From positions 1 through 32,200 of the IMG/VR virus record IMGVR_UViG_3300030328_002601: DNA of 32,200 bases; one strand, given 5' to 3'. Under the pieces are notes generated by a model, which worked only from the letters and a program-made list of their open reading frames with translations, was not told where the DNA came from and searched no databases. The DNA comes from a virus. Below are positions 2,456 through 24,032 of this stretch, in pieces (positions within the stretch are counted from its first letter, which is position 1; every line of letters begins with the position of its first letter). The translations under genes were made by a program, and so were the position numbers.

Positions 2456-2545
2456 TTATTGTTTTTGGTTATTAAATAAGTATTTTATCGTCGGTGGAAA
2501 TAACTTAATTACTAAAGTTCCTTTTCCTATTTTTATTTTAAACAT
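2456..2545 (-). CDS. Possible tiny protein, 29 aa
   Basis: An ATG at 2545 overlaps the last codons of the thymidylate-synthase-fold gene in another frame, and the TAA lies 4 bp before the MazG-like gene. The predicted peptide MFKIKIGKGTLVIKLFPPT then continues to end in NNQKQ. It has a plausible strand-rich composition and fills an 86-bp gap in a genome with almost no such gaps. There is no homology evidence, so it could be chance. Confidence 0.35.
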   Translation of the reverse strand: MFKIKIGKGTLVIKLFPPTIKYLFNNQKQ

Positions 2546-3320
2546 TTAACTTTGCTTTTATATATTCATTACTATTATAGTTTATAATCTTATAATCCTC
2601 AACTCTAAAGCTATATTTATCTATTTCAATTTCTGGGTCTGGGAATGTTGGTTTTAATAACATTTCGTTTACTTCGTTTAAATGATTTTCATAAATATGA
2701 GCATTAGCTAAATTAAAATAAATACTTCTTGCATTATGATTAGTAGCATGAGCAATATATTTAAGCATTAAAGTTCCTACAATAATATCATAAGGCAACC
2801 CTAAAAAAACATCAGAACTTCTAAAGTTCATAATCATATCTAAGCTTTTACCTTCTGCTACAAAAGTCATATCCACATAACAACATGGTAACGGTTGTTC
2901 TTTAATTACTTCTGGATTCCAAAAAGAAATAACAGCTCTCCTTGATAAACCATGAGGGTTATCTCTTAACTCATTTATTACGTAAATTAATTGGTCAAAA
3001 GTACCATTATATTTTCGTAACATTTGAGGATATGAATTTTCTAAATCATTATTTTCATCTGCCCACGCATTCCACCATGTAACATTATGTTCTAATAAAT
3101 AATCAATACTTTTTTTACCCTGCATCAACCAACAAAATTCTGCTATTCCTTTATTATAAAATATTTTTTTAGAAGTTATCACTGGAAATCTACCCTCACT
3201 TAAACTTAACTTTAATGTTTGATTAGTTAATTGAACAGCATAACCATTTCTAGTTTTAAGTCGACTTCCTCCTAAAATTATTTTTCTTAATAATTCATTA
3301 TACTTATCACTACTTCTCAT
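2538..3320 (-). CDS. Thymidylate-synthase-fold enzyme, probable dCMP (hydroxy)methylase
   Basis: This 260-aa protein matches ThyA in length and motif order. Seen are the catalytic Glu61 (AEFCWLMQG), the NVTWWNAWADENNDL segment, the SRR phosphate arginines (126-128), nucleophile Cys146 (LPCCY), RSSDVFLGLPYDI (167-179) and AHIYENH (207-213). The His normally after the nucleophile is Cys. More telling, E. coli ThyA has Asn177 (LPFN) reading the uracil ring, whereas this protein has Asp178 (LPYD). Asp at that position is characteristic of dCMP-specific enzymes such as T4 dCMP hydroxymethylase. I infer action on dCMP rather than dUMP, and methyl versus hydroxymethyl transfer cannot be told from sequence alone. 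The gene overlaps its upstream neighbour by 11 bp. Confidence 0.85.
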   Translation of the reverse strand: MRSSDKYNELLRKIILGGSRLKTRNGYAVQLTNQTLKLSLSEGRFPVITSKKIFYNKGIAEFCWLMQGKKSIDYLLEHNVTWWNAWADENNDLENSYPQMLRKYNGTFDQLIYVINELRDNPHGLSRRAVISFWNPEVIKEQPLPCCYVDMTFVAEGKSLDMIMNFRSSDVFLGLPYDIIVGTLMLKYIAHATNHNARSIYFNLANAHIYENHLNEVNEMLLKPTFPDPEIEIDKYSFRVEDYKIINYNSNEYIKAKLNV

Positions 3321-5134: not shown

Positions 5135-5379
5135 TTTAATTTGTTATTTATAATATCAACGCAATTTGAATAATGAGTTGCGTTGTTCCTCATTGTGTTT
5201 ATTATTTCTGTAATATCATGAATAAAATTTTGGTACATGTCAATTTGTAATTCATGAACAGTTTTCATAACTCCCTCAGTATTATTTTTTCTTTCATTCA
5301 ATTCTGTTAATCTATTTATGTAACGTTCTCTAAGGTCAGATAACATTTGAAGATTTGGGTTAAGCAATTCTACTTCCAT
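5131..5379 (-). CDS. Hypothetical helical protein, 82 aa
   Basis: The product is nearly all helix-forming, with a run LQMLSDLRERYINRLTEL that looks like a coiled coil, followed by HELQIDMYQNFIHDITEIIN. No catalytic motif is seen. It overlaps the gamma-glutamylcyclotransferase-like gene by 10 bp and the SSB-like gene by 4 bp, so it is translationally coupled to both. It may be a small structural or adaptor protein. Function is unknown. Confidence 0.6.
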   Translation of the reverse strand: MEVELLNPNLQMLSDLRERYINRLTELNERKNNTEGVMKTVHELQIDMYQNFIHDITEIINTMRNNATHYSNCVDIINNKLK

Positions 5380-5747
5380 GATAATTCTCTTTTATAATTT
5401 CCTGTTTTATTAAGTCTTGCACCAATAGGTAACTTAGTAATTAAAAAATATGTCCAACATTCTATACAACTTCCTGTAGCTGGAATGCAAACTAATATTT
5501 TTTTTCGATTATACCAATCTGGGTGACCTTCTAAAGCATCTAATCGTTGTAATGTTTCATCTGTTACTGAATAAACTTCTCCTCCAATAGGGGAAATAGG
5601 GTCATCAATTAAATAAGGCAATCCATCCTCATATAAAGCGAATTTTCGTCTAGTACAACCAGTTCCAAGAAATTCACTATCACCTAACATACCATTATTT
5701 CCATGACTTCTTTTTAAAGTCCCATACACAAAAACATTATTTGTCAT
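5370..5747 (-). CDS. Gamma-glutamylcyclotransferase-like (GGCT/AIG2 family) protein
   Basis: This 125-aa protein has the hallmark strand-loop VFVYGTLKRSHGN (residues 5-17; YGTL binds the substrate carboxylate and amine), GGEVYSV and LDALEGHPDWYNR, where Glu of LEGH is the expected catalytic acid/base. It covers a full single-domain GGCT fold. Members release 5-oxoproline from gamma-glutamyl amines or dipeptides. In this genome it accompanies an Amidoligase_2 gene and a class II glutamine amidotransferase 1.4-3.6 kb upstream, a combination known from Amidoligase_2 gene neighbourhoods. It may edit or release a gamma-glutamyl intermediate made by those enzymes. Substrate is unknown. Confidence 0.82.
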   Translation of the reverse strand: MTNNVFVYGTLKRSHGNNGMLGDSEFLGTGCTRRKFALYEDGLPYLIDDPISPIGGEVYSVTDETLQRLDALEGHPDWYNRKKILVCIPATGSCIECWTYFLITKLPIGARLNKTGNYKRELSWK

Positions 5748-6015
5748 TTTTTTTATCTTTTAAATTATAATTATGAAGACCTTGAATGTATGCACATAAG
5801 TCCATTAAGGTGTCTTCTTTCATTTGATAAGCCATTCTGGACGCTTTTAAAGCAATCATACATTTAAAGAAGTCTTGTGTACTAATATCTTTATTACACA
5901 TAACTGAAGCAATTTTAGCTGCTTTTGACATTGAATCGTTAAATGGTCCATATTGTCTTTCTTTTTCCTCAGCTCCATGATTAACTATTTCGTCTGCTTT
6001 TTTTAATATACTCAT
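5737..6015 (-). CDS. DUF6378-like phage protein
   Basis: This 92-aa helical protein has an N-terminus ILKKADEIVNHGAEEKERQYGP and later FFKCMIALKASRMAYQMKEDTLMDLCAYIQGL. The ADxxv...RQYG block, followed by a conserved K-x-(S/A)R helix and (D/N)xxDxxxY helix, is the pattern of DUF6378-type phage proteins. These are often coded among nucleotide-metabolism genes and resemble all-alpha pyrophosphohydrolases. The metal-binding carboxylates are not clear enough to claim activity. The gene overlaps the GGCT-like gene by 11 bp and abuts its upstream neighbour by 1 bp. Confidence 0.6.
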   Translation of the reverse strand: MSILKKADEIVNHGAEEKERQYGPFNDSMSKAAKIASVMCNKDISTQDFFKCMIALKASRMAYQMKEDTLMDLCAYIQGLHNYNLKDKKNDK

Positions 6016-6407
6016 TATAAAAATCTTTTATTTTCTGGGTCTAACGCATACTCTGACCATAACTTACAGCCAGAAACTTTTTTATTAAACCAGCATTGTT
6101 CATACTCTTTTTTTAAATTAATGTCGCAACTAAATTCGTGCTTTCTTTCTGTTACGCTTTCAACCATATCATTTCCATCCACATGGTAACGGTCATAAAT
6201 ATATATCTCATCAATCATTTCCCATTGTTCGTTTTCTTTCATCCAATCTATAAATCGATTATATTTTTTTTTGTCTCCTATAAACATTAATTTTCCTGTG
6301 ACTGTTTCAGTATCTGAATAATAATGATTTGTTGCAGAGTCTAAAACCGCTTTAGGGGCTTCAAAGGGCTTGCTCACCGCAATTATTATTTTTTCTAATG
6401 GTTTCAT
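6015..6407 (-). CDS. Hypothetical protein, 130 aa
   Basis: The sequence opens with a beta strand (LEKIIIAVSKPF), then a Thr/Gly-rich segment VTGKLMFIGDKKKYNRF, a Trp-rich helix IDWMKENEQWEMIDEIYIYD, and a C-terminal part with two Cys (CDINLKK, CWFNKKVSGCKLW). No family is recognised. It lies in an unbroken chain of small genes in the accessory block with 1-bp overlap downstream. Context puts it between the amidotransferase and cyclotransferase genes, so a link to that pathway is possible but unproven. Confidence 0.6.
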   Translation of the reverse strand: MKPLEKIIIAVSKPFEAPKAVLDSATNHYYSDTETVTGKLMFIGDKKKYNRFIDWMKENEQWEMIDEIYIYDRYHVDGNDMVESVTERKHEFSCDINLKKEYEQCWFNKKVSGCKLWSEYALDPENKRFL

Positions 6408-6412
6408 ATATA

Positions 6413-6523
6413 CTATTTTTCTTGTTCTAATATTTCAGTTATTTCAGCTAAAGTCATTTCATCTATTTGTTCATCAGTATAAATATCTCCAGCTATTTCT
6501 TTTAATAATTTCCAGGGGTTCAT
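6413..6523 (-). CDS. Tiny acidic protein, 36 aa
   Basis: The ATG at 6523 follows the upstream stop by 1 bp, and the TAG is 5 bp before the next ATG, so the frame fills a 117-bp gap precisely. The peptide (MNPWKLLKEIAGDIYTDEQ, then a DEMTLAEITEILEQEK helix) is acidic and amphipathic. The TLAEITEIL segment looks like a small helical interaction module. No family is recognised. Confidence 0.55.
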   Translation of the reverse strand: MNPWKLLKEIAGDIYTDEQIDEMTLAEITEILEQEK

Positions 6524-6524
6524 A

Positions 6525-6773
6525 TTATAATAAATTTAATTGTTTGCATTCTAGTTTTATTTTTGATTTTCTATAGTTAGGTCTTTCCTCTTTATTATCT
6601 AAAGCTAATCCAGAAATCATATCGCCTTTATTAAGACCTTTAACAAAACCTCTTCTGCCGTTTTCGTGCCATGCAACAATTTTACCACAGCTTAATCTTA
6701 ATTTGTAGGTTAATATATTTCTTTCGAAAGGACCATCATAAGGACCAATTATGTTATGTATATTAGCCCTCAT
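6525..6773 (-). CDS. Hypothetical beta-rich protein, 82 aa
   Basis: The protein is predicted to be mostly strands: ILTYKLRLSCGKIVAWHENG, then RRGFVKGLNKGDMISGLALD, then a basic SKIKLECKQLNLL end. The Gly/charged turns and the K-G-D-M-I pattern suggest a small barrel (OB- or SH3-like), which is a weak structural guess. It overlaps the upstream gene by 11 bp. No function can be assigned. Confidence 0.55.
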   Translation of the reverse strand: MRANIHNIIGPYDGPFERNILTYKLRLSCGKIVAWHENGRRGFVKGLNKGDMISGLALDNKEERPNYRKSKIKLECKQLNLL

Positions 6774-7062
6774 GAGTCATGTATTTTGGAGTTGAACTTA
6801 TATGTCTTAAGTAACCAGATTTAATTAAACTTTTAACAAAAGCTTTATCACTGGAATCATCTAAAATTGTTCCGTCCCACATAGAAAAAAATTCTTTAGA
6901 TAACTTTCGATGTTGCTCATTTGTTTTTGGTTGGTCAAATGGAATTTGGCGCATTTGAGCCACTAAGTCTTTATAGCTTCTTGCTATAAACATCATTGGG
7001 TTTTTTGGGTCATCGTATAATTTATAAATACTTACCCAGTGTTGAGTTGCTTGTAATTTCAT
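6763..7062 (-). CDS. Hypothetical protein, 99 aa
   Basis: This is a mixed alpha/beta basic protein. Visible blocks are HWVSIYKLYDDPKNPMMFI, a helix YKDLVAQMRQIPFDQP, HRKLSKEFFSMWDGTILDD and KSLIKSGYLRHI. No catalytic motif is recognised. A TATATTTG box lies 28 bp upstream of its ATG, directly after the amidotransferase gene, so it may head a transcript running to the replication genes. Confidence 0.55.
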   Translation of the reverse strand: MKLQATQHWVSIYKLYDDPKNPMMFIARSYKDLVAQMRQIPFDQPKTNEQHRKLSKEFFSMWDGTILDDSSDKAFVKSLIKSGYLRHISSTPKYMTHEG

Positions 7063-7089
7063 AGTTTATTATTATTTAGTTTGTTGATA

Positions 7090-7097
7090 CAAATATA
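7090..7097 (-). promoter_or_regulatory. Possible Bacteroidota -7 box (TATATTTG)
   Basis: A TAnnTTTG match lies in the 36-bp gap between the amidotransferase stop and the ATG at 7062. The distance to the start (28 bp) suits a short leader. No clear TTG -33 element is visible inside the amidotransferase gene end, so the call is weak. Confidence 0.35.
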
Positions 7098-7098
7098 G

Positions 7099-7836
7099 TT
7101 AAAATAACCTTCCTTGACTTCTTGACCACCCTGAAGTTGCTAAGGGCTTTGTTTTAGGTGTGTCATATTCCCACCAATTTTTTATTTCATACTCTTGCTC
7201 TTGAATTGGTTTATATTCAATTCTACGCTTTACAATACGCTCACCATTTTCATAAATATATAAATATCCTTCATCCAGCATAAATATATTTTTACACCCA
7301 ATAACTTCTAATGGGTTTTTTAAACTTGAAAAGTATTTATTGCCATTAATATTCCCACAAAATAACGGGTTGCCTTTCCTGTATGCGTATAAGCGACTAT
7401 TGTTTTTCGTGTATAAAGTAGCTAGAGTATTATTAAATAGCCCTAAAATTTTTGGGTCATTAGTATGGTTTAATAACTGAAATATCATTTGAGAATCAAC
7501 ATCAGTTCTATCAAAACCAAATTTCTCTCCAACCTCAGCAAAATTTAAAACCACTCCATTATGGGCTCCAGTAAATTCACCATATGTAAATGGGTGTTGA
7601 TTTGCAATAGTTACCTCTCCATGAGTCTTATGTCTTGTGTGACCTATGAATAGGCGCGTTTTAAGACGTTTTAAATCTTTTTTAAGGTTAACAGTTAGAC
7701 CTAATGTTTTCTTTAGTCTAAACGTGTCGAAATAGCCACAAGAGTGTTTACCCCTAGATTCATTCATTTTCATTAAATACATTATTCGTTTTGGCTCAGT
7801 ATTTGATTTGCCATTATATCCTATTAATCCACACAT
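7099..7836 (-). CDS. Class II glutamine amidotransferase (Ntn hydrolase)
   Basis: This 245-aa protein begins MCGLIGYNG. After Met removal, Cys2 is the N-terminal nucleophile. Other class II motifs are in order: RGKHSCGYF (about 29), FIGHTRHKTHGEV with NQHPF (about 68-85), TGAHNGVVLNF (about 92) and DRTDVDSQMIF. These define the glutaminase domain that releases ammonia from glutamine, as in GlmS, PurF and AsnB, but no synthetase domain follows. The C-terminal ~70 residues are strand-rich and end in a basic tail. It must pass ammonia or a glutamyl group to a partner. The Amidoligase_2 gene 258 bp upstream is the obvious candidate. Confidence 0.88.
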   Translation of the reverse strand: MCGLIGYNGKSNTEPKRIMYLMKMNESRGKHSCGYFDTFRLKKTLGLTVNLKKDLKRLKTRLFIGHTRHKTHGEVTIANQHPFTYGEFTGAHNGVVLNFAEVGEKFGFDRTDVDSQMIFQLLNHTNDPKILGLFNNTLATLYTKNNSRLYAYRKGNPLFCGNINGNKYFSSLKNPLEVIGCKNIFMLDEGYLYIYENGERIVKRRIEYKPIQEQEYEIKNWWEYDTPKTKPLATSGWSRSQGRLF

Positions 7837-7837
7837 G

Positions 7838-8005
7838 TTATTTATTGTTTTTAAATTGATTACTAATTTTAATTGTTGTCTTTTTATCGATTTCAGCTAA
7901 ACGCTTAATTTCTTTTTTATACCAGTCAAATCTTTCTTTAGGCATTTTGTTTGTTTGAATTCTTAAATATTGAATCCATTCGTTGTAACTTAATTCTCTG
8001 TTCAT
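7838..8005 (-). CDS. Small basic protein, 55 aa
   Basis: The ATG at 8005 and TAA at 7838-7840 place this frame 1 bp before the amidotransferase gene, so it is almost certainly co-translated with it. The product (MNRELSYNEWIQYLRIQ, then a KMPKERFDWYKKEIKRL helix and a Lys-rich end) is helical and basic. No family is recognised. Its position between the amidoligase and amidotransferase genes makes it a candidate small partner of that system. Confidence 0.6.
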   Translation of the reverse strand: MNRELSYNEWIQYLRIQTNKMPKERFDWYKKEIKRLAEIDKKTTIKISNQFKNNK

Positions 8006-8042
8006 TGTTTTTGTTTTAAATTAATATTAGGTTTCTACCACC

Positions 8043-8068
8043 AAAAGCCCGACGCTTTCACGCCGAGC
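8043..8068 (-). terminator. Hairpin with GAAA tetraloop and short U tail
   Basis: On the minus strand a 9-bp stem (including G-U pairs) from GCTCGGCGT and GCGTCGGGC encloses a GAAA loop at 8056-8059 and is followed by TTTT. It begins 25 bp after the amidoligase stop and is far richer in GC than its surroundings. A terminator is the simplest reading. The GNRA loop and short U tract also suit an RNA structure that stabilises the 3' end. Confidence 0.6.
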
Positions 8069-8093
8069 AATTGATGCAAACAAAAACTAACTT

Positions 8094-8984
8094 TTAAAAT
8101 CGTCTTAAGGAAGCTCCTTTGTCAAATGACCCAGAGAATATGTTAAACCCAAAATGTAATGCTCTTGACTCAAAATGTTTCATTACTTTTCTGTTTTGCT
8201 TAACACCGAATACATCGATAAAAACGTCTTGATGATTAACTGAAGGAGCAAATTGAACAGCTTTCATTTTGAAAACTTTGTCAACTGTGTTTAAACAAAA
8301 TGCAACCCACGTAGTGATTTTTTTAGAATCAACTGTTCCAGAGTGTTGTCTGAATTCAACTGTTCTGTACCTTCTAAAAGAGTGTAAATTTATTTTATTA
8401 TATCTGTTTCCTAAAAAGTTTGCAATTGCACTGATTTGAGTAGGTAAACCTTCAGCGTCATTTTGCTTTACTAATTTGTTTAGTCTTTTTATATTAGAAG
8501 CGTTATAAGTCATAACTGGTTTGCAGTACATATTGTTGTTGCTTCGTCTGCTGTTAGGCATTACTGAATCAATTATAGATTCGTTCTTAGCATAGTATTT
8601 TACTAAGTTTGCAACTTTCTTTGCAGTAGCATCTTGAATTCCTACGTGAACATGAATTCCGCAAGACTTATTTACTTTTACTGTTGGGATAGAATCTAAA
8701 GCGTTAACTATAATATTTAATTCATTCATTCCCTCTTGACCTCTTAAAACTGGTGAAACTAATTCGTAGCCACAGCTTGAGTCAGTTACTAATTTCCAGT
8801 GGTTTCTTGTGTTGTGATTATAAGACTCGTGGTATACATTAATATAATTAGATGGGTCTCTAGTTTCATTTATTGAAGCTAAAGCCGCATTTAATTTATT
8901 ATTAATAGTGCTTAATCTGTTTGATGAAGTAAACTCGATTTCTACTCCGAAAGTTCTTGTTGATTTGTTTTTAATTGTTTTCAT
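8094..8984 (-). CDS. Amidoligase_2-family COOH-NH2 ligase
   Basis: Taking the ATG at 8984 (an upstream GTG at 9053 is also open but includes promoter-like DNA) gives 296 aa. Family motifs are TFGVEIEFTSSNR (about 9-21; the Glu pair binds metal/ATP), CGYELVSPVLRG, CGIHVHVGIQDA (HxHxG) and RTVEFRQHSGT. Amidoligase_2 proteins are glutamine-synthetase-like ligases predicted to join a carboxylate to an amine with ATP. Neighbourhoods with glutamine amidotransferase-like and Aig2/GGCT genes are known for this family, and both are present here. Substrates are unknown. It has its own upstream -7-like box and downstream hairpin, so it may form a single-gene transcript. Some annotations would call it hypothetical. 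Confidence 0.85.
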   Translation of the reverse strand: MKTIKNKSTRTFGVEIEFTSSNRLSTINNKLNAALASINETRDPSNYINVYHESYNHNTRNHWKLVTDSSCGYELVSPVLRGQEGMNELNIIVNALDSIPTVKVNKSCGIHVHVGIQDATAKKVANLVKYYAKNESIIDSVMPNSRRSNNNMYCKPVMTYNASNIKRLNKLVKQNDAEGLPTQISAIANFLGNRYNKINLHSFRRYRTVEFRQHSGTVDSKKITTWVAFCLNTVDKVFKMKAVQFAPSVNHQDVFIDVFGVKQNRKVMKHFESRALHFGFNIFSGSFDKGASLRRF

Positions 8985-9022
8985 TTTTCTAGTTTTTGTT
9001 TTTATTTGTTTGTTTGATACTG

Positions 9023-9030
9023 TAAATATA
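9023..9030 (-). promoter_or_regulatory. Possible -7 box (TATATTTA) for the amidoligase gene
   Basis: TATATTTA differs from TAnnTTTG only in the last base and lies 38 bp upstream of the ATG at 8984. T-rich DNA about 20 bp upstream could serve as a degenerate -33 region. The call is weak, but it lies in the only long non-coding gap. Confidence 0.3.
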
Positions 9031-9099
9031 GGACATTTCCTGTTAAAAAACACTATCTTTTAACAATTATTTTCAATAAAAGTGCATATTTTTTTCTTT

Positions 9100-9111
9100 C
9101 TATCTAGTAAT
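9100..9111 (-). promoter_or_regulatory. Shared 12-bp element ATTACTAGATAG, copy 1
   Basis: The minus strand reads ATTACTAGATAG followed by an A-rich run. The same 12 bases, again followed by an A-rich run, occur at 28971-28982 upstream of the portal gene. Both copies lie in non-coding leaders before -7-like boxes. It may be an operator or activator site, though distances to the boxes differ (about 69 and 54 bp). Confidence 0.35.
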
Positions 9112-9236
9112 CAAGCACTTAGGAGGATAAAAAAAACTTAAAAAAACTTAAAATTAGGGTATAAATGGGGTTATTTTGATGATTTTCTGAGCTTAAGAAA
9201 GTTAAATTTAGCTCATTTTTAGAATTTAAAAACGAA

Positions 9237-9262
9237 AAAAGACCCCGGAATGGAGGCCTTTT
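9237..9262 (-). terminator. Rho-independent terminator after the metallophosphoesterase gene
   Basis: On the minus strand AAAAGGCCTC pairs with GGGGTCTTTT (10 bp with G-U pairs) around a 6-nt loop, and two more T follow. The A/T flanks allow it to act in both directions. It lies 63 bp past the gene stop and ahead of the amidoligase promoter region. Confidence 0.7.
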
Positions 9263-9325
9263 CTCTAACAAACAACAATAAACTAGATGATTTCCGAAGT
9301 AATCAACTTGAATATTACAAAAATA

Positions 9326-10555
9326 CTAAATAACAATTTCAAATAAAGTCTTTTTGGTCTTTGTTTTCAACAAGGACTTTGCATTATATTCAGCTAGTTT
9401 TAAATTTATTGGATAACCAGTGTAACTTTCTGCATTTTGTAAATCTATACGGGTATCATATCTGCCTTCATTTGTATATATATATATATTCTGACTTGCT
9501 CTACTGCTTAAGTTTAAAGCATTATCGCTGTATGAATTTGCTCCAACAGTGCTTCCAGCTTGAGCGTAAAAATCTCCAATTAAGCAATGATGTTTATGAC
9601 CACAAATAACAAAATCAATTTTAGTTCCTTTATTAGAATATTTAGAAATCAATTTTGATGTTTGACTATCATTTAATCCTTTCATTTGATGGCCATGAAT
9701 TAATAAAATATTTTTATCTCCAATATTTACAACTACTTCTAATCCACAATCTATAAAGTTTACACCTTTTTTATTTTCATATAATAACCTCAGCATTTCG
9801 TAAATAGTGAAATCATAATTATCACTGGCAGTTATATCGGTCCATCCATTGTTTTCTTTTACACGGCTTTCGTTCCCTGTTACACAAGCGATATTCACAT
9901 GACCTATTTTATTTAAGTCTTGAATAAAATGAGAAATCAAATTAACAGATAAAAAAGTTGCCTTAGCTCTATTAGTACTCATAGACAACATTTCATCTAA
10001 ACGCCTATCTGAATTCATTAGGTCTCCAGTGATAGCTAATAATATATTTTTAACCTTATATATTTTCGCGTGCTTTTTAGCTATATCAGCAAATTTTTGT
10101 AATCTTTGAGAAGCAATTTTAAAGTCATATTTATTCCCGTCAATATTAACTAACTCGTTAAAATGAGTATCTGTTAAATGAACTATTAAAGCGGCATTTG
10201 ATTTTTCTGATTTGTATTCCTCTGTATATAAAGTTAAATTATAATCTTTCAAAAGTGACACTATCTCTTTGCTATATTCTGCAATAGCATTTTCAATTCT
10301 TGCGTGTTCTCTAAACGATTTTCTTTCAATACGATTTAAGTCTTGTTGTTTTTGTTTTTGCTTAGCTAACTTTACGCTTGACTTTAAAAGTTCTTTATCA
10401 ATATAATGGTATTTAACTAACTGCTCAATTATACGGTTGGAATCGTTTATATGAATATCTAAGTTATTTTCTGAAATTAATTTTTTAGAAATATAATCCA
10501 GCCCATAACCTTCTCGCCATAGTGATATAATTAAGTCTTTATATTTATCGTACAT
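9326..10555 (-). CDS. Metallophosphoesterase with N-terminal HTH-like region
   Basis: This 409-aa protein has the calcineurin-like metal motifs in order: HLTDTHF (about 126-132), ITGDLMNSDRR (GD), VTGNESR (GNxxx), LLIHGHQMKG (GH) and ICGHKHH (GHxH). The set is complete, so it should be an active binuclear metal phosphoesterase. The N-terminal ~55 residues (LIISLWREGYGLDYISKKLI) look like a resolvase-type helix-turn-helix, followed by a basic Gln/Lys helix, suggesting nucleic-acid targeting. It could be a DNA nuclease, nucleotide phosphodiesterase or second-messenger hydrolase. It has its own terminators on both sides and is thus transcribed separately from the lysis genes. Confidence 0.8.
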   Translation of the reverse strand: MYDKYKDLIISLWREGYGLDYISKKLISENNLDIHINDSNRIIEQLVKYHYIDKELLKSSVKLAKQKQKQQDLNRIERKSFREHARIENAIAEYSKEIVSLLKDYNLTLYTEEYKSEKSNAALIVHLTDTHFNELVNIDGNKYDFKIASQRLQKFADIAKKHAKIYKVKNILLAITGDLMNSDRRLDEMLSMSTNRAKATFLSVNLISHFIQDLNKIGHVNIACVTGNESRVKENNGWTDITASDNYDFTIYEMLRLLYENKKGVNFIDCGLEVVVNIGDKNILLIHGHQMKGLNDSQTSKLISKYSNKGTKIDFVICGHKHHCLIGDFYAQAGSTVGANSYSDNALNLSSRASQNIYIYTNEGRYDTRIDLQNAESYTGYPINLKLAEYNAKSLLKTKTKKTLFEIVI

Positions 10556-11511: not shown

Positions 11512-14500
11512 TTACGCTATTTTCATTATGTTTAATATTGTTCCGTCTTTGTCTAAAGTTATTCCTGACGCTGAGGTAGCTCTTCCTTCAATCCAGAATC
11601 CCATATGTATTGTCACAAATGAAATTTCATCACTACCTATTTCTGTTATTTTTAATATACAACTACTGCTTCCACTTCCTTTATAAACAGTACCCCAAGA
11701 GGCAGCTCCTGAGCTAGTAGCTGTTCCTCTATCATAATTAAATACTTGAGTTCCTGTGACAGCATATTCCTCATCTCCTACTGTTTTAAATAACATTCCT
11801 CCAGCTAATGTTCTATTGGCAGTTCCTGAAACTGTAGTACACAAAGAAAAATCAATTTTATAAGTTCCATTTTCAGAAATCTTAACTTTACTTGACGCAA
11901 CAGTAAAAGGAGTAGCAGCAGATAGTCCTCCAATAACGGTATTTAAAGCAACTGTAGTATAACTTGTTTTGGACCCAACATTTCCTCCTGAGCTTATAGC
12001 TGTATTTGTAGTTGTTCCAACAGATATACATTTTATTGATGTTGCTCCTCCTCCAGAAGGGGTTGGGATGTTTAATATATTATCCTCAAATGATGCTGCT
12101 CCACTTGTACCCTCTGTTGTTAAAGTTATTGTGCCTTGTTTTCCCTCTATAGCTGTTGTATTAGTTTCTATATTAGAGGTGTTTGTTGAAACATTTGTAT
12201 TAGTTGTATTTAAAGCAGTGGTATTTGCTTTAGTAGCAATTGCTGATGTATTAGATTCTATAGAAGTTGTATTTGATTCTATAGCTGTTGTATTTGAAGC
12301 AATATTTGTAGCATTAGTGGTAACGTTCGTATTAGTTGTATTTAAAGCAGTGGTGTTTGCTTTGGTATCAATAGCGGTTGCATTGGTTTCAATACTCGTG
12401 GTGTTTGATTCTATACTTGCAGTGTTTGTTCCAATGTTTGTTGCATTAGTTGATATGTTTCCAGTAGCGGTTGTTAAGACTGCGTCTCTTGATGCAATAT
12501 CTACCCCGTCAACCGTTCCACTTACAACAATATTTCCTGTAATATCACAATCACTAGAACTAATTTTCATTCTAGTTGTTCCCCCGGTTTTAATTATCAT
12601 TTTACCATTGGAATCAACATTAATGCTACCATTAGAATCATCTCCATTTGTAAATCGTAAAACGGGGGTAGCTCCAGCGCCGTCATCAATAACTAAATTT
12701 CCAGTCATTGTTCCTCCAGTTTTTGATAATTTACCACTTAAAGATGACGTGTTTGATTCTATAGCCGTTGTATTTGATTCTATAGTTGTAGTGTTTTCAG
12801 ATATGCCTGTAGCATTGGTTGAAATATTTGTAGCGTTGTTAGATACATTTGTGTTTGTAGTACTTAAAGCAGTAGTTGTAGCTTTAGCATCTAATGCAGT
12901 TTGTGTTGCAGTACTAATAGGTTTATTAGCATCACTTGTATTATCAACAGCACTCAATCCAACCATAGTTTTATCAATCCCACCAACTGTTCCCGTGAAT
13001 GTAGGTGAAGCAATATTTGCTTTTAAAGCTATATTACTTGTGTTACTATCAATAGCACTTGCTTGTTCCTCTGTTATCCCAGTTTTAGCAGTATTAGCGG
13101 TAATTTCGTCAGCTTGAGTAGAGGTGATAGTTGTAGTATTTCCAGCCAGCGCTTTTGTTGCTGATGTTCCAAAACCTGGGAATGTAACTTTATCAGTATT
13201 TGCAGCCACTGCAGTTTCTAAATTAGCAATATTAGGAATAGCAACTGTCCCAGTAAAAGTTGGATTATTTTTAGGAGCTTTATTAGTATCTAAGTTTGAT
13301 ATATCTGTATCGTTATTTGAAATGTTAGTAGCATTAGTTGATATATTAGTACCATTAGTAACTACATTTCCAGTTAAATTAGTAACATTTGTAGCGTTGG
13401 AAGTTATACCACTATTCATTGTATTTAAATCAACAGCACTAGATACAGATATATGACCTAATTTAGTTTGTTCAGTAGTAGTTATTCCAGTTTTAGCAGT
13501 GTTAGTACTAACTGCACTTTCTAAATCAGCGATATTTGGGATAGCTACTGTTCCTGTAAAAGTTGGATTTTCTTTTGGTGCTTTTAAACTATCTAAATTA
13601 GATATATCAGTATCATTACTTGATATGTTAGTTGTATTTGTAGCAATATTAGTAGCATTATTTGTTACATTAGTGTTCGTTGTGTTTAAATCACTTTGAC
13701 TTGCTTTAGTTCCTATTGCTGTTGCATTATTTGCTATATCTGTATCGTTACTTGCTATGTTTGTTGCATTTGTAGTAACATTGGTATTTGTAGTATTTAA
13801 GTCCGACTGACTTGCTTTAGTTCCAATAGCAGTAGAATTATTAGATATGTTAGTTGTATTAGCAGCTATATTAGTTACATTAGTTGCAATATCAGTATCG
13901 TTATTAGATATGTTAGTTGCATTCGTTGAAATATTTGTAGCATTATTTGTAACATTGGTATTGGTAGTTGCTAAAGCCGAACTATCTGCTTTGTTTGTTA
14001 TTGCTGTAGCGTTGGTTGAAATATTTGTTGTATTTGTAGCGATGTCTGTCGCGTTTGCAGTGATATTTGATGTATTAGTACTAACATTAGTATTGGTTGT
14101 GTTTAAAGCACTCGTAGACGCTTTAGAATTGATGTTTGTTGTATTTGTTGCAATATCAGTTGTGTTAGTCGCAATATTTGTTGTATTTGTTGAAACATTA
14201 GAATTGGTTGTAGCTAACGCTGAGGAATCTGCTTTATTCGAAATCGCCGTTGTATTACTTGAAATATTAGTTGCATTAGTGGTGATGCTTTCTGTTGCAG
14301 AGGTTAAAACCGCATCTCTTGCAGCAACATCTACACCATCAACAGTTCCGCTTAATTCAATATCATTAATATCGGATATATCTCCACTTGATAAATTAAC
14401 TTTAAATTTTTTGGTAGATGAATCTGGACCTATCCAAAATGAACTTCCTTCAGAAACTAAATGAGCTTGTGTATCATTATCATCTATTCTTATAAATCCT

Positions 14501-17500
14501 TTATTATCATTACTTTTAAAAATCGCAATAGTATTTGTATCTCCAGAATTAGCATTTAATGCAACTCCTTCTGTATCAATATCAATCTGATTAGTGGACG
14601 AATTACCTCTATCAGTTACTGACTGTAATGTATCTCCTTCTGTTTGGTCTATTTTTTGCCAAACATCAGTATTGCTAAATATAATCCAATCACCTGCTTT
14701 CCATTCTGAAATACCATCAATCGTAGTTGTTCCCGCAACACTTACTATATAATAATATCCTTCTGTTCCAGTTCCTGAAGCTAGTGTAGGACTATTAGTT
14801 TCTGCATTCCATGTACCTTGATAGCTTAATCCTTTTGGAACGGAAGCAACTTTAGTATCTACATAAGCTTTAACACTTTCAGAAGTAGGTACACTATTAG
14901 CACTTGTGCCAGACATAGTATCAGAATCTAACCATCCAGTAATTTCAATTCCACCTTTAGAAAGACCATCAGCATCAACACTAAAACCGGCTACAGTTCC
15001 TTTGGTTTGACGCATAACTTGTTCGAATTCTGGAATATCAGGAATTGTTATAAAAGGATAACCGTTTCCTGGATTAATTAATTGGTCTTCATCTGAGTTC
15101 CCTATTGTAATAGACGAAAATGATATTGATGTAGCGTCAGAAGCAACGTCCGCTGTTAAAGTAATTTTTTGTTTATAACCGCTAGTGTATTCTAATTGTA
15201 ATACATCACCAGATTTACAAACATAATCCGTTCCATAAACAAAATTTTCTTGATACATAGTATTAGGAGCTGCAATATTCAAAGACGTAATTGTTGCTCC
15301 TTGTGCTGGGGCTGATGTTGCTTGTAATAAAGTTCGTGTGTTTCTTGTGCTTGATGGAGCTGTAATTGCTGGATTATTTCGACTCCTTCCTCCAGGATTA
15401 AAATTATTTCCTCCCGCTAGTCTTGCTTGTACACTTCCTGCAGGAGCGCCAACTGTTGCCTCTATCCATTCTCCTTCCCACCTGTCATCGGTCACTGAAT
15501 AAGTTCCACGTCTAAAAAAGTATCTTGTGTTTACAGCAGTTCCTGACCCATCTACATCACAATCTTGTATAACCCCAATAGGATTAATAAAATAAGGTCT
15601 TCCATTTGGATTAGTTATTCCAGCGGGAGCATTTACAATTGAAAAATTTGCCCTTCGTAATGTCGCTTGTTGACATTCTTTCATCTGATAATTTAGTAGC
15701 TCTACAAAATTTCTTCCAGAATTTAACGTAGGAACTGTTGTAGAGGAATAATCTCGTCTATCCCAATTATCATTAGTCCAGTCTGTAAATACCCATCCTG
15801 ACCCATCGTAAACCATTAAAGCACTATCATCCCAATATTCTGGACCATCACCATAGAAAACATCTCCCCAATCTAATTCTTTTGAATCGGTAGTTTGAGT
15901 ATTAATAAATATAGTATTTGTAGTTGGTCCTTGTTGTGCATTTGAAATTGGTTGAACAGTGCTCAACATATTATTCGCAAAACCGGTACTCCAAGAAGGA
16001 GGGTTTTGAGCTGAGGTGTCAATTGGGTTTCCAAAATCTGTTAAGTAAGTTGGAACACTAGAACTATAGGGCCATCCAGTTTGAGCGTTTATTGTAGTCC
16101 CAAATTGATTTTTAATATACGGAGGAGGGAAACCTCCAAGCTTAAACCCATACTTCGTGTTTGCTGCCTGAAAGCCAGGGAATTCTATATTCTTTAACGA
16201 AACTGTTACATTAACACCTGGAGAATAAGGACCTTGTCCATCTGCTAAATCAATTGGTGGGCCATAATTATTTGTATTCATTGAACCAGAATATGGGGTT
16301 CCAGACGCCGGTGTTACCCAAGAATAAGAATTATTAACACTATCCCAAGATAAAGTTGCATAAACTCCCGGACCACTACCTCCAATTGATGTATCTGCTT
16401 GTATTTGTGTAGCCGCAGGATTCATTGCAAACACCCATATAGTAATTTGGTCTAAAGTCCAATTTTGAGTAAACCAATATGAATCTACATTCATATCAAT
16501 AAATAAGTTTGTTCTAAATTTATACTGGTCACTATTAATCATAGCTGGAGTAGTCATTTGAAATGGATTCTCAAAAGTTGCAGTTGGACCATTGTAACCA
16601 CTTGCAGAAGGTAAATACCATCCAGGAAAAATATTTTGATAACCCTCGTGAACTAAATTTGTTTTTACTTCTCTTAAAACTGGTAAAAATTTATATTGTG
16701 TTCCTTCTAATTTTTGTATTTGTTCTCCCGGAGCTGAATTGTTTGCAAACTCATTAAAAAATCTTGACCAATATTGATTACCTATAGAAGCTTGTCTACT
16801 TCCATAAAAATCTCCATCCGCGTAAAATCTTTGAGCATACTGGTCTAGAGGAACAGTCCATGTATTGGGTTGACCTGGAGCAATCTCCGGTGGATTAAAA
16901 TACTCGCGAATTTGTACAAAATAATAAAACCCTCCCCAAAAGATTACACGGCATCCCCAAGACCTACAAATTTGTTTTAACACTTCATAAGCACTTGCTA
17001 TATTTCTTTGACCATTTGCTAAGTTTGTTTGGTCAGCCCATTTAACAGTACACTTAGTAAGTCCCCAGACACTACGTGAGCCACTCGTTTGATTTGGTGC
17101 ACCATAACTACCCATTGAAGTATTATACCACCTTATACACGTTTTAAATGCAACTTTATTTGTTGCGTTATCGTAAAATCCTTCAGTTTGTGCTTGTGTT
17201 GTAAAATGACCGGTATGTTGTAATATTTGTCCAATCCAATATGCAACTTTCTTATGACCTTGAGCTTTATATTCGGCCGCATTTGTATCTACATTTTCAG
17301 CTTTAAAAGGAATTGATTTTAATTTTCCAATACCATCAGTAAAATTTAATTGAATAGGAAAAGGGCGTGACTGGTCAACAAGAGTGTCTAAGTCATGTAA
17401 AAATTCTCCATACCATATTGTTGCACCCCCTTGTTTAATAACTAAAAAGACATCCCCTTCTTTATATGGTAAGTATGTTTGATTACTAATACCTAATATA

Positions 17501-17775
17501 TCATCAACAAACTCGTGTGTCCATTGGTCATCAACAATAAAATTTAAAGATACTTTTGACCCAACAATTGGAGCAAATTTTTCATCTCCTTCACAATCAT
17601 ATTTAATATTAATACCCCCATCAGTTACTTTAAAATTATAAGGGGGAGTCCCTTGTCCTGCTCCTCCGGTGAGTTGCCATGCTCTATCCCATATTTGAAC
17701 TGTCCAAGTCCTTCCAGTTGGTGATTTAAAATTTGCTTGAAAACGTAAATCGTATGCTGAATTTATTACTGCCAT
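11512..17775 (-). CDS. Giant tail-tip/receptor-binding fibre protein, 2087 aa
   Basis: This gene follows the tape measure by 1 bp and fills one fifth of the genome. Residues 1-~350 resemble tail-tip (baseplate hub-like) proteins: AYDLRFQANFKSPTG, FVDDILGISNQTYLPYKEGDVFL. About 390-860 is rich in Gly/Asn/aromatic residues, with carbohydrate-binding character. About 985-1060 holds a GLSYQGTWNA...YYIVS...GDWIIFS module common in tail fibres. About 1160-1875 is a long trimeric-coiled-coil-like repeat of units such as TNATNIS and NTTNIAS. The last ~150 residues form a strand-rich head (ISENGTYKIDFSL) like TNF/C1q-type receptor-binding tips. There is no S74-type self-cleaving chaperone. The fusion of tip and fibre in one chain is unusual. 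Confidence 0.82.
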   Translation of the reverse strand: MAVINSAYDLRFQANFKSPTGRTWTVQIWDRAWQLTGGAGQGTPPYNFKVTDGGINIKYDCEGDEKFAPIVGSKVSLNFIVDDQWTHEFVDDILGISNQTYLPYKEGDVFLVIKQGGATIWYGEFLHDLDTLVDQSRPFPIQLNFTDGIGKLKSIPFKAENVDTNAAEYKAQGHKKVAYWIGQILQHTGHFTTQAQTEGFYDNATNKVAFKTCIRWYNTSMGSYGAPNQTSGSRSVWGLTKCTVKWADQTNLANGQRNIASAYEVLKQICRSWGCRVIFWGGFYYFVQIREYFNPPEIAPGQPNTWTVPLDQYAQRFYADGDFYGSRQASIGNQYWSRFFNEFANNSAPGEQIQKLEGTQYKFLPVLREVKTNLVHEGYQNIFPGWYLPSASGYNGPTATFENPFQMTTPAMINSDQYKFRTNLFIDMNVDSYWFTQNWTLDQITIWVFAMNPAATQIQADTSIGGSGPGVYATLSWDSVNNSYSWVTPASGTPYSGSMNTNNYGPPIDLADGQGPYSPGVNVTVSLKNIEFPGFQAANTKYGFKLGGFPPPYIKNQFGTTINAQTGWPYSSSVPTYLTDFGNPIDTSAQNPPSWSTGFANNMLSTVQPISNAQQGPTTNTIFINTQTTDSKELDWGDVFYGDGPEYWDDSALMVYDGSGWVFTDWTNDNWDRRDYSSTTVPTLNSGRNFVELLNYQMKECQQATLRRANFSIVNAPAGITNPNGRPYFINPIGVIQDCDVDGSGTAVNTRYFFRRGTYSVTDDRWEGEWIEATVGAPAGSVQARLAGGNNFNPGGRSRNNPAITAPSSTRNTRTLLQATSAPAQGATITSLNIAAPNTMYQENFVYGTDYVCKSGDVLQLEYTSGYKQKITLTADVASDATSISFSSITIGNSDEDQLINPGNGYPFITIPDIPEFEQVMRQTKGTVAGFSVDADGLSKGGIEITGWLDSDTMSGTSANSVPTSESVKAYVDTKVASVPKGLSYQGTWNAETNSPTLASGTGTEGYYYIVSVAGTTTIDGISEWKAGDWIIFSNTDVWQKIDQTEGDTLQSVTDRGNSSTNQIDIDTEGVALNANSGDTNTIAIFKSNDNKGFIRIDDNDTQAHLVSEGSSFWIGPDSSTKKFKVNLSSGDISDINDIELSGTVDGVDVAARDAVLTSATESITTNATNISSNTTAISNKADSSALATTNSNVSTNTTNIATNTTDIATNTTNINSKASTSALNTTNTNVSTNTSNITANATDIATNTTNISTNATAITNKADSSALATTNTNVTNNATNISTNATNISNNDTDIATNVTNIAANTTNISNNSTAIGTKASQSDLNTTNTNVTTNATNIASNDTDIANNATAIGTKASQSDLNTTNTNVTNNATNIATNTTNISSNDTDISNLDSLKAPKENPTFTGTVAIPNIADLESAVSTNTAKTGITTTEQTKLGHISVSSAVDLNTMNSGITSNATNVTNLTGNVVTNGTNISTNATNISNNDTDISNLDTNKAPKNNPTFTGTVAIPNIANLETAVAANTDKVTFPGFGTSATKALAGNTTTITSTQADEITANTAKTGITEEQASAIDSNTSNIALKANIASPTFTGTVGGIDKTMVGLSAVDNTSDANKPISTATQTALDAKATTTALSTTNTNVSNNATNISTNATGISENTTTIESNTTAIESNTSSLSGKLSKTGGTMTGNLVIDDGAGATPVLRFTNGDDSNGSINVDSNGKMIIKTGGTTRMKISSSDCDITGNIVVSGTVDGVDIASRDAVLTTATGNISTNATNIGTNTASIESNTTSIETNATAIDTKANTTALNTTNTNVTTNATNIASNTTAIESNTTSIESNTSAIATKANTTALNTTNTNVSTNTSNIETNTTAIEGKQGTITLTTEGTSGAASFEDNILNIPTPSGGGATSIKCISVGTTTNTAISSGGNVGSKTSYTTVALNTVIGGLSAATPFTVASSKVKISENGTYKIDFSLCTTVSGTANRTLAGGMLFKTVGDEEYAVTGTQVFNYDRGTATSSGAASWGTVYKGSGSSSCILKITEIGSDEISFVTIHMGFWIEGRATSASGITLDKDGTILNIMKIA
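12150..14290. repeat. Degenerate coding repeats of the fibre coiled coil
   Basis: About 2.1 kb of short repeating units encode seven-residue motifs of the type TNxTNIx. A longer module (a TVDGVD segment and RDAVLT) occurs twice, about residues 1143 and 1753, and another (PTFTGTVAIPNI) occurs twice, about 1405 and 1505. The repeats are related at the DNA level, so they can recombine and change fibre length. They also create long spurious frames on the plus strand. Confidence 0.85.
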
Positions 17776-20756: not shown

Positions 20757-21079
20757 CCGCTTTTAGGTTCTTCAGTTCCAAAGGTCATTCCCATATGTTC
20801 ACTAAACAATTCTAAAGCTTTTTGCATTCCTGTTGCATCTCCATCCAACATATCAGCAATATCATCTGATGTATAATTAAAGTCTGCTCCGGCTCTCCTG
20901 TGTCCTTCTTGAGTCCCCGCAAATATTAGTTCAACTATATCATCTAAACTCATATTATTTCCAAGCTGTGCTAATTCATTTAAACTAGTTCCAGTTTTTC
21001 TACAATATTTTCTTAAAGCATTAAACCCAAAATAAATTGGTAAATCTTTTTTTCCTAAATTAACTATTTCATATTTCAT
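20726..21079 (-). CDS. Tail assembly chaperone, G product
   Basis: The frame is open to a TTG at 21151, but the ATG at 21079 (117 aa, MKYEIVNLGKKDLPIYFGF) gives the usual chaperone opening, with strand-turn-strand then NALRKYCRKTG. The middle is acidic and helical (SLDDIVELIFAG, RRAGADFNYTSDDIADML) and the end is Lys-rich, where the slippery site lies. Size, order after the tail tube and before the tape measure, and the frameshift signal all mark it as the lambda gpG-like partner. It prevents tail-tube and tape-measure misassembly. Confidence 0.78.
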   Translation of the reverse strand: MKYEIVNLGKKDLPIYFGFNALRKYCRKTGTSLNELAQLGNNMSLDDIVELIFAGTQEGHRRAGADFNYTSDDIADMLDGDATGMQKALELFSEHMGMTFGTEEPKSGKKQTPTQKK

Positions 21080-21109
21080 TTTTTCGTATGTTTTAAGAAG
21101 TTCCGCTAA

Positions 21110-21136
21110 GGTGAAATCATACGAAATGAAATCACC
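21110..21136 (-). other. RNA hairpin upstream of the tail assembly chaperone start
   Basis: The minus strand reads GGTGA-TT-TCAT, a TTCGT loop, ATGA-TT-TCACC: two perfect arms separated by a symmetric TT/TT internal loop. No U-run follows, so it is not a normal terminator. It sits 31 bp before the ATG at 21079 and could lower chaperone expression relative to the abundant tail tube, or stabilise the upstream mRNA. Confidence 0.5.
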
Positions 21137-21162
21137 AAAGCTTCCCTTCAATTATTGTGTCG

Positions 21163-21591
21163 TTATGGTAGTGTAGCCAAACTTAAAGGACCTGCAGCTG
21201 CAAACGACACTGTAAATGTAGCTGTTTCCTCCATTGGTGCATCAATTGATAATTCTGATACTATCGCATTGCCTGTAAAATATTTATCCCCTGACACTGA
21301 TGTTCTAAACTGAAGTTGTAGAACCTGTTGATATGCCATATAAGAACTAAAAATCTGATAAAACTTCATACCACCAGTAGTTCCAGCTCCACCCATTGCA
21401 ACTAAAGCATCACACGAAATTTCCCAATCACGTCTACCTGGAATTCTTGAATTCCAATTACCAGTAGAGGCATCAGTAGTGTTTAATGTTTCTTGTGTGA
21501 TAGTAATACTACAAGAGGTTGAAAAACCAATATCTGCAGAATCCATTCTAACAAACAAAGCTGTTCCATTAATTTTACCAGGACTTGCCAT
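21163..21591 (-). CDS. Major tail tube protein paralogue 2
   Basis: This 142-aa protein is of the TP901-1 tail-tube type. It opens with GKINGTALFVRMD and continues SCSITITQETLNTTDASTGN, GRRDWEISCDALV, then YFTGNAIVSELSIDAPMEET and TFTVSFAAAGPL. Its neighbour at 21595-22026 has the same order of blocks (xxxINGTxFxI, RDWEISCxxxV, xxDAPxEExxTxSxSFxG), so they are tandem duplicates. Each could form part of the tube, or one may be the tube and the other a cap or tail-tip adaptor. The gap between the two genes is 3 bp. Confidence 0.82.
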   Translation of the reverse strand: MASPGKINGTALFVRMDSADIGFSTSCSITITQETLNTTDASTGNWNSRIPGRRDWEISCDALVAMGGAGTTGGMKFYQIFSSYMAYQQVLQLQFRTSVSGDKYFTGNAIVSELSIDAPMEETATFTVSFAAAGPLSLATLP

Positions 21592-22617: not shown

Positions 22618-22836
22618 TTAATTTGTTCCCCATCCATTATCGGGGGTTAATAACTCTATCATTTGTTGTCTATTATATTCCTCGTAATTTATTAAAAAAC
22701 TAGGAGTTTCTCCTATAAATTTTAGTACACATTTTGTTCCGTCATTTGAGACCCTTAATGTATCAAGACTAGTTTCTATAACCTCATTGAAGTTTACTTG
22801 ATTTAACTCGCTTGTATTATAAATTACATATTTCAT
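22618..22836 (-). CDS. Small protein, 72 aa
   Basis: The sequence MKYVIYNTSELNQVNFNEV, then LDTLRVSNDGTKCVLKFIG and a short helix NRQQMIELL suggests an alpha/beta fold. No catalytic residues or known family. It starts 1 bp within the end of the tail-terminator fusion gene (stop and start overlap), so it is probably translationally coupled to it. It could be a small neck accessory. Confidence 0.5.
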   Translation of the reverse strand: MKYVIYNTSELNQVNFNEVIETSLDTLRVSNDGTKCVLKFIGETPSFLINYEEYNRQQMIELLTPDNGWGTN

Positions 22837-24032
22837 TATGGTACATCTGTTTCAAAGTCTGCCGCTATCATATTTTGGCATTCTCCTGTGTTATTATATG
22901 AACTGTTATCATTAATTTCCGGGAAAACTCCAGAGTCTCCCATTCTCCAATATCCGTTTAACTCGCTATTAAAAGTAAGCAATAAATCATTTGGTGTTCC
23001 TCCATTATAAATAGAAGTCACTTGTGTTGATGTTAACTCTACATTAAATAAAGCCACCTCATCAATGTTTCCATCCATATATGTAGTTTCAACTCTTCCT
23101 ACAGTAAACTCTGAAGCAGTATTTTCCATTGCTGTATAAGTTCCACTGCTACCAAACCCTAGTGCTGGTATTGACCCGTTAACATAAATATTCATACCTG
23201 CATGAGTTCCACTACCATCATACGTAAACACAAGATGATACCACTGACCTGTATTTAATGACCCTGCTAAATTTTTTGTAATATACGCAGAATTTGAATC
23301 ATCGTATAATCTAAATCTTAAACCAGAAAAACCAAACCTCACTTGATATTCTTTTGCCGCAGCACCAGAATCTTTACCTAATACTCCAACAGTACTTGCT
23401 GTAGAATCAAAGTTAGCCCAACATGATATTGAAAACGGAGAATCCGTTGTTCCGTTACCAAACGTAAATTTATCTGAATCTCCCATTGTAACATATTCAT
23501 CATTCCCATCAAAATTTGTAGAATAAACATTAACAAATGGATTTTTAAATTTTTCGTTAATTACTCTTACAACATAATCATGCGAAATATGATAAACTCC
23601 TTCTGGAGCAATATCTTTTTCAAATTGAGTATTCATTGAATCAAATATCATTGAATCAATTACAGGACCCACAGGGTCCGGTTGTACTCCACTATCAACA
23701 ACATTATCTAAAGCATCTCTTACTGCTGCTGATAAAGTTGCAATATCAGAATAAGACCGATGGTACATACTTATTTGGATAGTTAAAATATCTAAGGGGC
23801 TTCTTCTGTTTTTCGTTCTAAGTAAAGCGGTTGAATCTCCTGGGTTCGCTAAACTTCCTTTTGTATTTGTCGGCTCTGTTGATATTAAATGATAAACAAT
23901 ATATGGAGCCATCGGTGTTGATGCGTTTAATAATGGAGCAACATTAGGATATATCCTAGTCCCCACAACACCCGCAACAGTCGCGTCATTACTTAATAAA
24001 TGATATATAGTAGCCCCTATATTAGCACTCAT
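22836..24032 (-). CDS. Tail terminator (DUF3168-type) fused to LamG-like lectin domain
   Basis: This 398-aa protein: residues 1-~158 (IGATIYHLLSNDATVAGVVG, IYPNVAPLLNASTPMAPYIV, ISMYHRSYSDIATLSAAVRD, HDYVVRVINE) match the DUF3168/tail terminator fold that caps the tail tube at the neck. After a short linker, residues ~168-398 are a full LamG/concanavalin A-like domain: FDGNDEYVTMGDSDKFTFGN, FSISCWANFDS, LNTGQWYHLVFTYDG, MNIYVNG, DGNIDEVALFNVEL, NGYWRMGD. Usual tail terminators are about 120-150 aa, so the C-terminal part is an addition. It would display a carbohydrate-binding domain at the head-tail joint. The domain call is strong and its ligand is unknown. Confidence 0.85.
   Translation of the reverse strand: MSANIGATIYHLLSNDATVAGVVGTRIYPNVAPLLNASTPMAPYIVYHLISTEPTNTKGSLANPGDSTALLRTKNRRSPLDILTIQISMYHRSYSDIATLSAAVRDALDNVVDSGVQPDPVGPVIDSMIFDSMNTQFEKDIAPEGVYHISHDYVVRVINEKFKNPFVNVYSTNFDGNDEYVTMGDSDKFTFGNGTTDSPFSISCWANFDSTASTVGVLGKDSGAAAKEYQVRFGFSGLRFRLYDDSNSAYITKNLAGSLNTGQWYHLVFTYDGSGTHAGMNIYVNGSIPALGFGSSGTYTAMENTASEFTVGRVETTYMDGNIDEVALFNVELTSTQVTSIYNGGTPNDLLLTFNSELNGYWRMGDSGVFPEINDNSSYNNTGECQNMIAADFETDVP

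Follow-up and report, generated by a model that had tools for sequence, protein, structure and literature searches.

A phage amidoligase gene set and the small protein encoded beside its ligase

What would a phage make, and perhaps unmake, with a ligase, a glutaminase and a gamma-glutamyl cyclotransferase encoded in one block? The question is raised by the linear IMG/VR virus record IMGVR_UViG_3300030328_002601 (32,200 bases, possibly a fragment), called the window below. On its minus strand, an Amidoligase_2 ligase (8094-8984), a stand-alone class II glutamine amidotransferase (GATase; 7099-7836) and a GGACT-type gamma-glutamyl(amine) cyclotransferase (GGCT; 5370-5747) belong to a block of eight genes, transcribed in the order ligase, a 55-residue gene, GATase, a gene for a conserved protein of 99 amino acids (u99; 6763-7062), an 82-residue gene, a 130-residue gene, a DUF6378 gene and GGCT. 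An earlier reading of the sequence, referred to as the original prediction, had named the three enzymes and placed their genes, and the open reading frames (ORFs) were found at those positions. Comparison with related loci revealed that the genes are not a chance group, that this ligase lineage is most often accompanied by GGCT and u99 rather than by GATase, and that u99 is a previously unnamed small protein whose gene accompanies the ligase in many phages and prophages. The set itself is a short form of the already described phage "peptidoglycan modification" cassette, rather than a new kind of system.

Partners of the ligase in viral and bacterial loci

An alignment of seven ligases from phages was used to scan IMG/VR, and of the 571 relatives that it gave the best 80 were taken; the counts therefore apply to the surroundings of this ligase in the family, not to phage amidoligases as a whole. 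Because the loci are often incomplete, each presence count is a minimum. Of the 64 background contigs, an arbitrary 14-mer had selected 51 and the thymidylate synthase homologue (ThyA) of the window 13. GGCT was found around 58 of the 80 related ligases and GATase around 7, compared with 0 of the 64 background contigs for each. The u99 gene lay beside the ligase, on the same strand, in 47 of the 80 viral loci, and a profile search recovered it from none of the 64 background contigs. Fisher tests gave p values of 4.6e-22 for GGCT, 1.5e-16 for u99 and 0.017 for GATase, values that treat the loci as more independent than their kinship allows. When all ligases of the analysis, not the 80 alone, were grouped by single linkage at 60% identity (86 clusters), GGCT accompanied 41 clusters, u99 46 and GATase 21. 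The partners in the viral loci are encoded on the same strand, downstream of the ligase.

These counts bear on the proposal that Amidoligase_2 recurs with both amidotransferase and Aig2-type genes. The co-occurrence exceeds chance and supports the claim of a recurring set. GATase accompanies a minority of the ligases, the usual partners being GGCT, u99 or both. The "amidotransferase-like" neighbours of Amidoligase_2 in the Pfam remark, used as a lead only, are presumably class I-fold thiol peptidases and differ from the class II GATase of the window. In the bacterial genomes, where 80 loci (mostly of Bacteroidota) were compared, u99 was present in 49 and GATase, directly after the ligase, in 18; the two never occurred together. 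The phage lineage of the window carries ligase, GATase, GGCT and u99 all at once. On the ligase tree, the presence of a partner changes at least 10 times for GATase, at least 17 times for u99 and at least 21 times for GGCT, some of these changes reflecting incomplete loci. Such repeated changes suggest that the linkage was lost and regained, or was assembled repeatedly.

The ligase, u99 and the two associated enzymes

The ligase, the first gene of the set, matches Pfam PF12224 with E=8.4e-40 and 137.6 bits (curated cut-off 22), over positions 2-243 of the 245-position profile. Nine residues (E15, E17, D68, E74, H111, H113, R146, R194 and N199) are invariant across 51 ligases, E210, R212 and H214 are at least 90% conserved, and the ExE, HxH and ExR motifs of the metal/ATP site are kept; the role of each residue, metal or ATP, was set by motif, by analogy with glutamine synthetase. 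An AlphaFold (AF2) model, built on an alignment of 46 sequences (the alignments for structure models comprised the viral and genome loci and the window), reached a predicted local distance difference test score (pLDDT) of 94.6. Foldseek searches of the PDB with this model returned YbdK (E=1.2e-6), glutamine synthetases and gamma-glutamylmethylamide synthetase as best matches, with the Pup deamidase Dop as a weak one. Because the best matches are of these kinds, the model supports a carboxylate-amine ligase of the glutamine synthetase (GS)/GCS fold, with a predicted ATP-dependent activity. Its product is probably an amide, likely a gamma-glutamyl one. The cassette literature cited here contains no demonstrated reaction for a phage-family Amidoligase_2 member. 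A profile match of the ligase to R.Ecl18kI among PDB sequences (E=0.022) was weak, found no support in the fold search, and was set aside.

Clustering of neighbouring genes placed a family of about 80 residues, which includes the window gene at 6763-7062, second among the partners of the ligase. A hidden Markov model trained on 34 members, none from the clade of the window, recovered the window's u99 at E=8e-7 among 10,639 frames, the best of the other frames reaching only E=0.07; no corresponding family was found in Pfam, PHROG or NCBIfam. The reverse search, performed with a u99 subfamily alone, yielded 17 viral loci, related to each other, with the ligase immediately upstream in 16 and a contig end at the remaining one. 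The window's u99 sequence by itself found one relative. Its AF2 model (pLDDT 86) shows a beta-beta-alpha-alpha-alpha-beta domain, for which no PDB fold match and only a few matches to uncharacterised viral structures were obtained. In the alignment columns, no Lys, acidic residue or C-terminal tail is conserved across all clades, that of the window included. This pattern argues for an accessory subunit, and u99 was judged unlikely to be a covalent substrate of the ligase. The idea that u99 is fused to the C-terminus of those ligases that have GGCT alone was tested and rejected. At slightly less than even odds, u99 may be dedicated to the ligase, as its subunit or adaptor, the two forming the core of a widespread and unrecognised phage and prophage modification enzyme to which GATase and GGCT are add-ons.

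The original prediction had not singled out u99, and had drawn attention to the 55-residue gene wedged between ligase and GATase (7838-8005, minus strand). That gene was rejected as a core part, as it recurs only in the closest relative of the window (L002), with a weak match elsewhere in L037; it has no Pfam family above cut-off. The conserved small partner is the gene at 6763-7062.

The GATase matches Pfam GATase_6 (E=2.7e-11) and resembles the glutaminase domains of GlmS and PurF in NCBIfam and among PDB sequences. It belongs to the Ntn class, with Cys2 as the predicted nucleophile, and keeps Arg68, Asn93-Gly94 and Asp114 as well; the catalytic residues are also kept in relatives. The enzyme is a stand-alone domain without a fused synthase, and the adjoining ligase is a candidate for the partner that uses its ammonia. 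Searching with the window GATase sequence alone returned one relative. GATase genes were also found in L003, beside a distant ligase, and in Arthrobacter phages. In Bacteroidota prophages a very small class II GATase of about 175-190 amino acids (MCVI.. HFRLATHG .. HNG .. TDSE) directly follows the ligase, in the place where others have u99 (L186, L189, L199, L208-L210, L212-L215, L220, L221, L225-L227, L229 and L232).

The GGCT matches the Pfam GGACT profile (PF06094) with E=6e-23 and mammalian GGACT (AIG2-like domain protein 1) with the catalytic Glu aligned; its YGTL motif and Glu73 are invariant. In phage C75C1 (OQ984151), one protein encoded in the ligase block, downstream of the ligase, consists of an N-terminal class II GATase (E=3.6e-8) and a YGTL-type GGCT (E=1.5e-26). 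The fusion gene (CDS0020, at 8503-9399 of locus L254) is annotated as a gamma-glutamyl cyclotransferase only. Among GGCT-bearing loci, the YGTL type was present in 9 of 10 with GATase, compared with 4 of 62 without it (p=8e-8, uncorrected for kinship). The fusion and this association support a shared pathway for the glutaminase and the cyclotransferase, as the original prediction had it. In the Bacillus phage 055SW001 (L010), a gene annotated as poly-gamma-glutamate hydrolase (20800-21438) lies about 8 kb from amidoligase and GGCT genes.

The three family assignments and the intact catalytic motifs of the original prediction were upheld by these matches. Substitutions of the ligase metal/ATP residues or of Cys2 in close relatives, which it had held to be telling, were not found, since the catalytic residues are conserved and L002, with 82% identity in the ligase, keeps the entire gene order at low ratios of non-synonymous to synonymous substitution (dN/dS). 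Between the window and L002 these ratios range from 0.12 to 0.29 for ligase, GATase, GGCT, u99 and the 55-residue gene, indicating that the three enzymes are under purifying selection.

The other members of the block have narrower distributions or other associations. The 82-residue gene (6525-6773, minus strand), which overlaps u99, was found only in the window and L002, where its product is 98% identical with a dN/dS of 0.03, a conservation well above that of the adjoining genes; searches of Pfam and PHROG placed it in no family. It is followed by the 130-residue gene (6015-6407, minus strand), taken from the ORF list, and by the DUF6378 gene (5737-6015, minus strand; Pfam), the neighbour of GGCT. 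The latter goes with the ThyA-like gene and not with the ligase, as it also adjoins ThyA in the ligase-less contigs L091-L093 and L095-L097. PADLOC gave no match for eight genes, and a defence-system reading was rejected. The ThyA homologue of the window (2538-3320, minus strand) has Asn replaced by Asp at the base-selecting position (LGLPYD), as it has in L002, L015, L017 and L091-L098, a signature of dCMP (hydroxy)methylases. A MazG-type pyrophosphatase is encoded at 2155-2451. Together, the two genes suggest that the DNA of this phage may contain a modified cytosine. In the tail region, the second half of the product of 22836-24032 (minus strand) appears, from its translation inspected by eye, LamG/lectin-type-like and joined to a short N-terminal tail protein, and a protein of 2,087 amino acids (11512-17775, minus strand) carries long Asn/Thr-rich repeats (TNATNI.. 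units).

Relation to described cassettes

A "peptidoglycan modification" cassette has been reported in phiEco32-, LUZ24-, PaP3-, tf-, UFV-P2-, RIO-1- and PSA-HP1-like podoviruses (PMC5498523, PMC3890496, PMC6256558, PMC11945000), with a gene table of the long cassette in PMC3890496. Citing papers trace it to Iyer 2009, as the founding paper, and to Hardies 2013. Modification of the host peptidoglycan or envelope and superinfection exclusion are proposed in this literature as a hypothesis (PMC5498523, PMC11945000, PMC6256558, PMC10580990). Like the window, the podovirus cassette holds Amidoligase_2, class II GATase and GGCT/AIG2 in one block; it also encodes an ATP-grasp enzyme and a second, phiEco32-like ligase of family PF14395, which were not found in the window or its relatives, and the window has u99. 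The long block of Amidoligase_2, PF14395 ligase, class II GATase and ATP-grasp was found in a LUZ24-like Pseudomonas phage (L006) and in phages of Klebsiella (L004), Vibrio (L007) and Cellulophaga (L008, crAss-like), those of L006 and L008 including GGCT. Custom profiles for the ATP-grasp and the PF14395 ligase matched cultured podovirus and crAss-like loci only, with none in the window (possibly a fragment) or in the other viral or genome loci. The ligase of the window is far in sequence from the podovirus ligases, which lie on long branches of the ligase tree.

Phages of Arthrobacter cluster AL and their relatives (Salgado, Laroye, Ottawa; PMC5513430) carry GGCT, Amidoligase_2 and class II GATase, and ATP-grasp is not annotated in them; they differ from the window in that GGCT precedes the ligase, u99 is not detectable, and the ligase is about 33% identical. 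Since the trio also occurs in long cassettes, the ATP-grasp and second ligase were not found, and the Arthrobacter trio is alike, the window set is best regarded as a short variant of the known cassette. Bacteroidota prophages share the ligase family and have a downstream mini GATase (as in L208) or u99 (as in L168 and L178), but never both among the 80 loci; their GATase is of the small size given above, and GGCT is rare. Phage C75C1 has Amidoligase_2, GATase and YGTL-type GGCT like the window and differs in the fusion of the last two and in that u99 was not detected. By published annotation rather than by sequence, the likeness extends to amidoligase and GATase in the OM43 phages MEP401 and MEP402 (PMC10580990) and to amidoligase, GATase and GGCT in the Planctomycetes phage ZRK32 (PMC10945688), which, unlike the window, also has a glutathione-synthase-like gene.

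Proposed mechanism and alternatives

A probability of roughly 0.5 is assigned to the reading in which the set is a short-form amidoligase cassette, with the ligase forming an amide, GATase feeding it, GGCT releasing the product, u99 as an accessory, and the envelope as the likeliest target. From the fold, the active sites and the linkage we infer the following reaction, order of steps and substrate. The GS/GCS-fold ligase would first use ATP to activate a carboxylate, which it would then link to an amine or ammonia. The class II GATase would then hydrolyse glutamine, supplying local ammonia and/or glutamate to the ligase. In a third step, the GGACT-type enzyme would cleave the gamma-glutamyl-amine product to 5-oxoproline, a cut that would enable the set both to write and to remove or trim a gamma-glutamyl amide. 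Finally, u99 would serve the ligase as accessory subunit or adaptor, not as covalent substrate. The likeliest single target would be the peptidoglycan or envelope of the infected host, altered for instance to block superinfection; this published guess leads because of the literature alone. The original interpretation is partly supported, and its chemistry is plausible.

Several points weigh against this reading. In many loci no GATase accompanies the ligase, which means that the family does not in general need ammonia to be supplied. The location of the cassette varies, near replication genes in the long cassettes and near terminase and head genes in prophages and in Porphyromonas and Lachnospiraceae phages, and thus indicates no single target. 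The peptidoglycan scheme with three linkages depends on the ATP-grasp and the second ligase, neither of which was found in the window (possibly a fragment), and the envelope idea is itself an inference repeated in the literature.

The best-surviving alternative, regarded as unlikely, is a pathway in which a gamma-glutamyl-amine or glutathione-like compound is made and recycled for nitrogen transfer, amine protection or the neutralisation of a host metabolite. It would suit the fold of the ligase, closest to YbdK (of the gamma-Glu-Cys ligase type) and gamma-glutamylmethylamide synthetase, and the GGACT type of the cyclotransferase, and the same enzyme types in phage ZRK32 have been interpreted as nitrogen and amino-acid metabolism (PMC10945688). 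However, plain metabolism would not usually involve a dedicated small protein partner such as u99, encoded next to the ligase, and no transporter or other pathway gene is prominent in the ligase neighbour clusters.

The frequency of u99 beside the ligase, in 48 of 81 viral and 49 of 80 genome loci, also invites a quite improbable scheme in which the ligase would attach an amino acid or a peptide to a protein, u99 being the tag, carrier or substrate and GGCT the eraser; GS-fold enzymes do include Dop, the weak structural match noted above. Yet u99 is a folded domain in which no Lys, C-terminal tail or acidic residue is common to all clades, and it is not detectable in about half of the GGCT-bearing viral loci. 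Decoration of a modified phage base or nucleotide by the ligase is held to be just as improbable. The same phage has the LGLPYD ThyA and the MazG-type pyrophosphatase, and DNA methyltransferase and terminase genes adjoin the ligase gene in some phages, but most ligase loci are without an LGLPYD ThyA, the ligase-less phage contigs L091-L098 have the same ThyA, the long-cassette podoviruses have no annotated ThyA beside the cassette, and no known DNA-hypermodification gene is prominent among the neighbour clusters of the ligase. A grouping of independent accessory genes by chance, for which the varying composition (ligase alone, with GGCT, with u99 or with GATase) and the repeated changes on the tree might speak, is very improbable, being largely refuted by the absence of the partners from the background, the ligase in 16 of 16 assessable loci of the reverse search, and the natural GATase-GGCT fusion.

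Phages that infect many different hosts carry amidoligase cassettes, which are commonly called cell-wall modifiers without direct proof. The present analysis sets the short form apart from the long podovirus form, and gives a set of four genes, ligase, GATase, GGCT and u99, with which the target of the ligase may be found.

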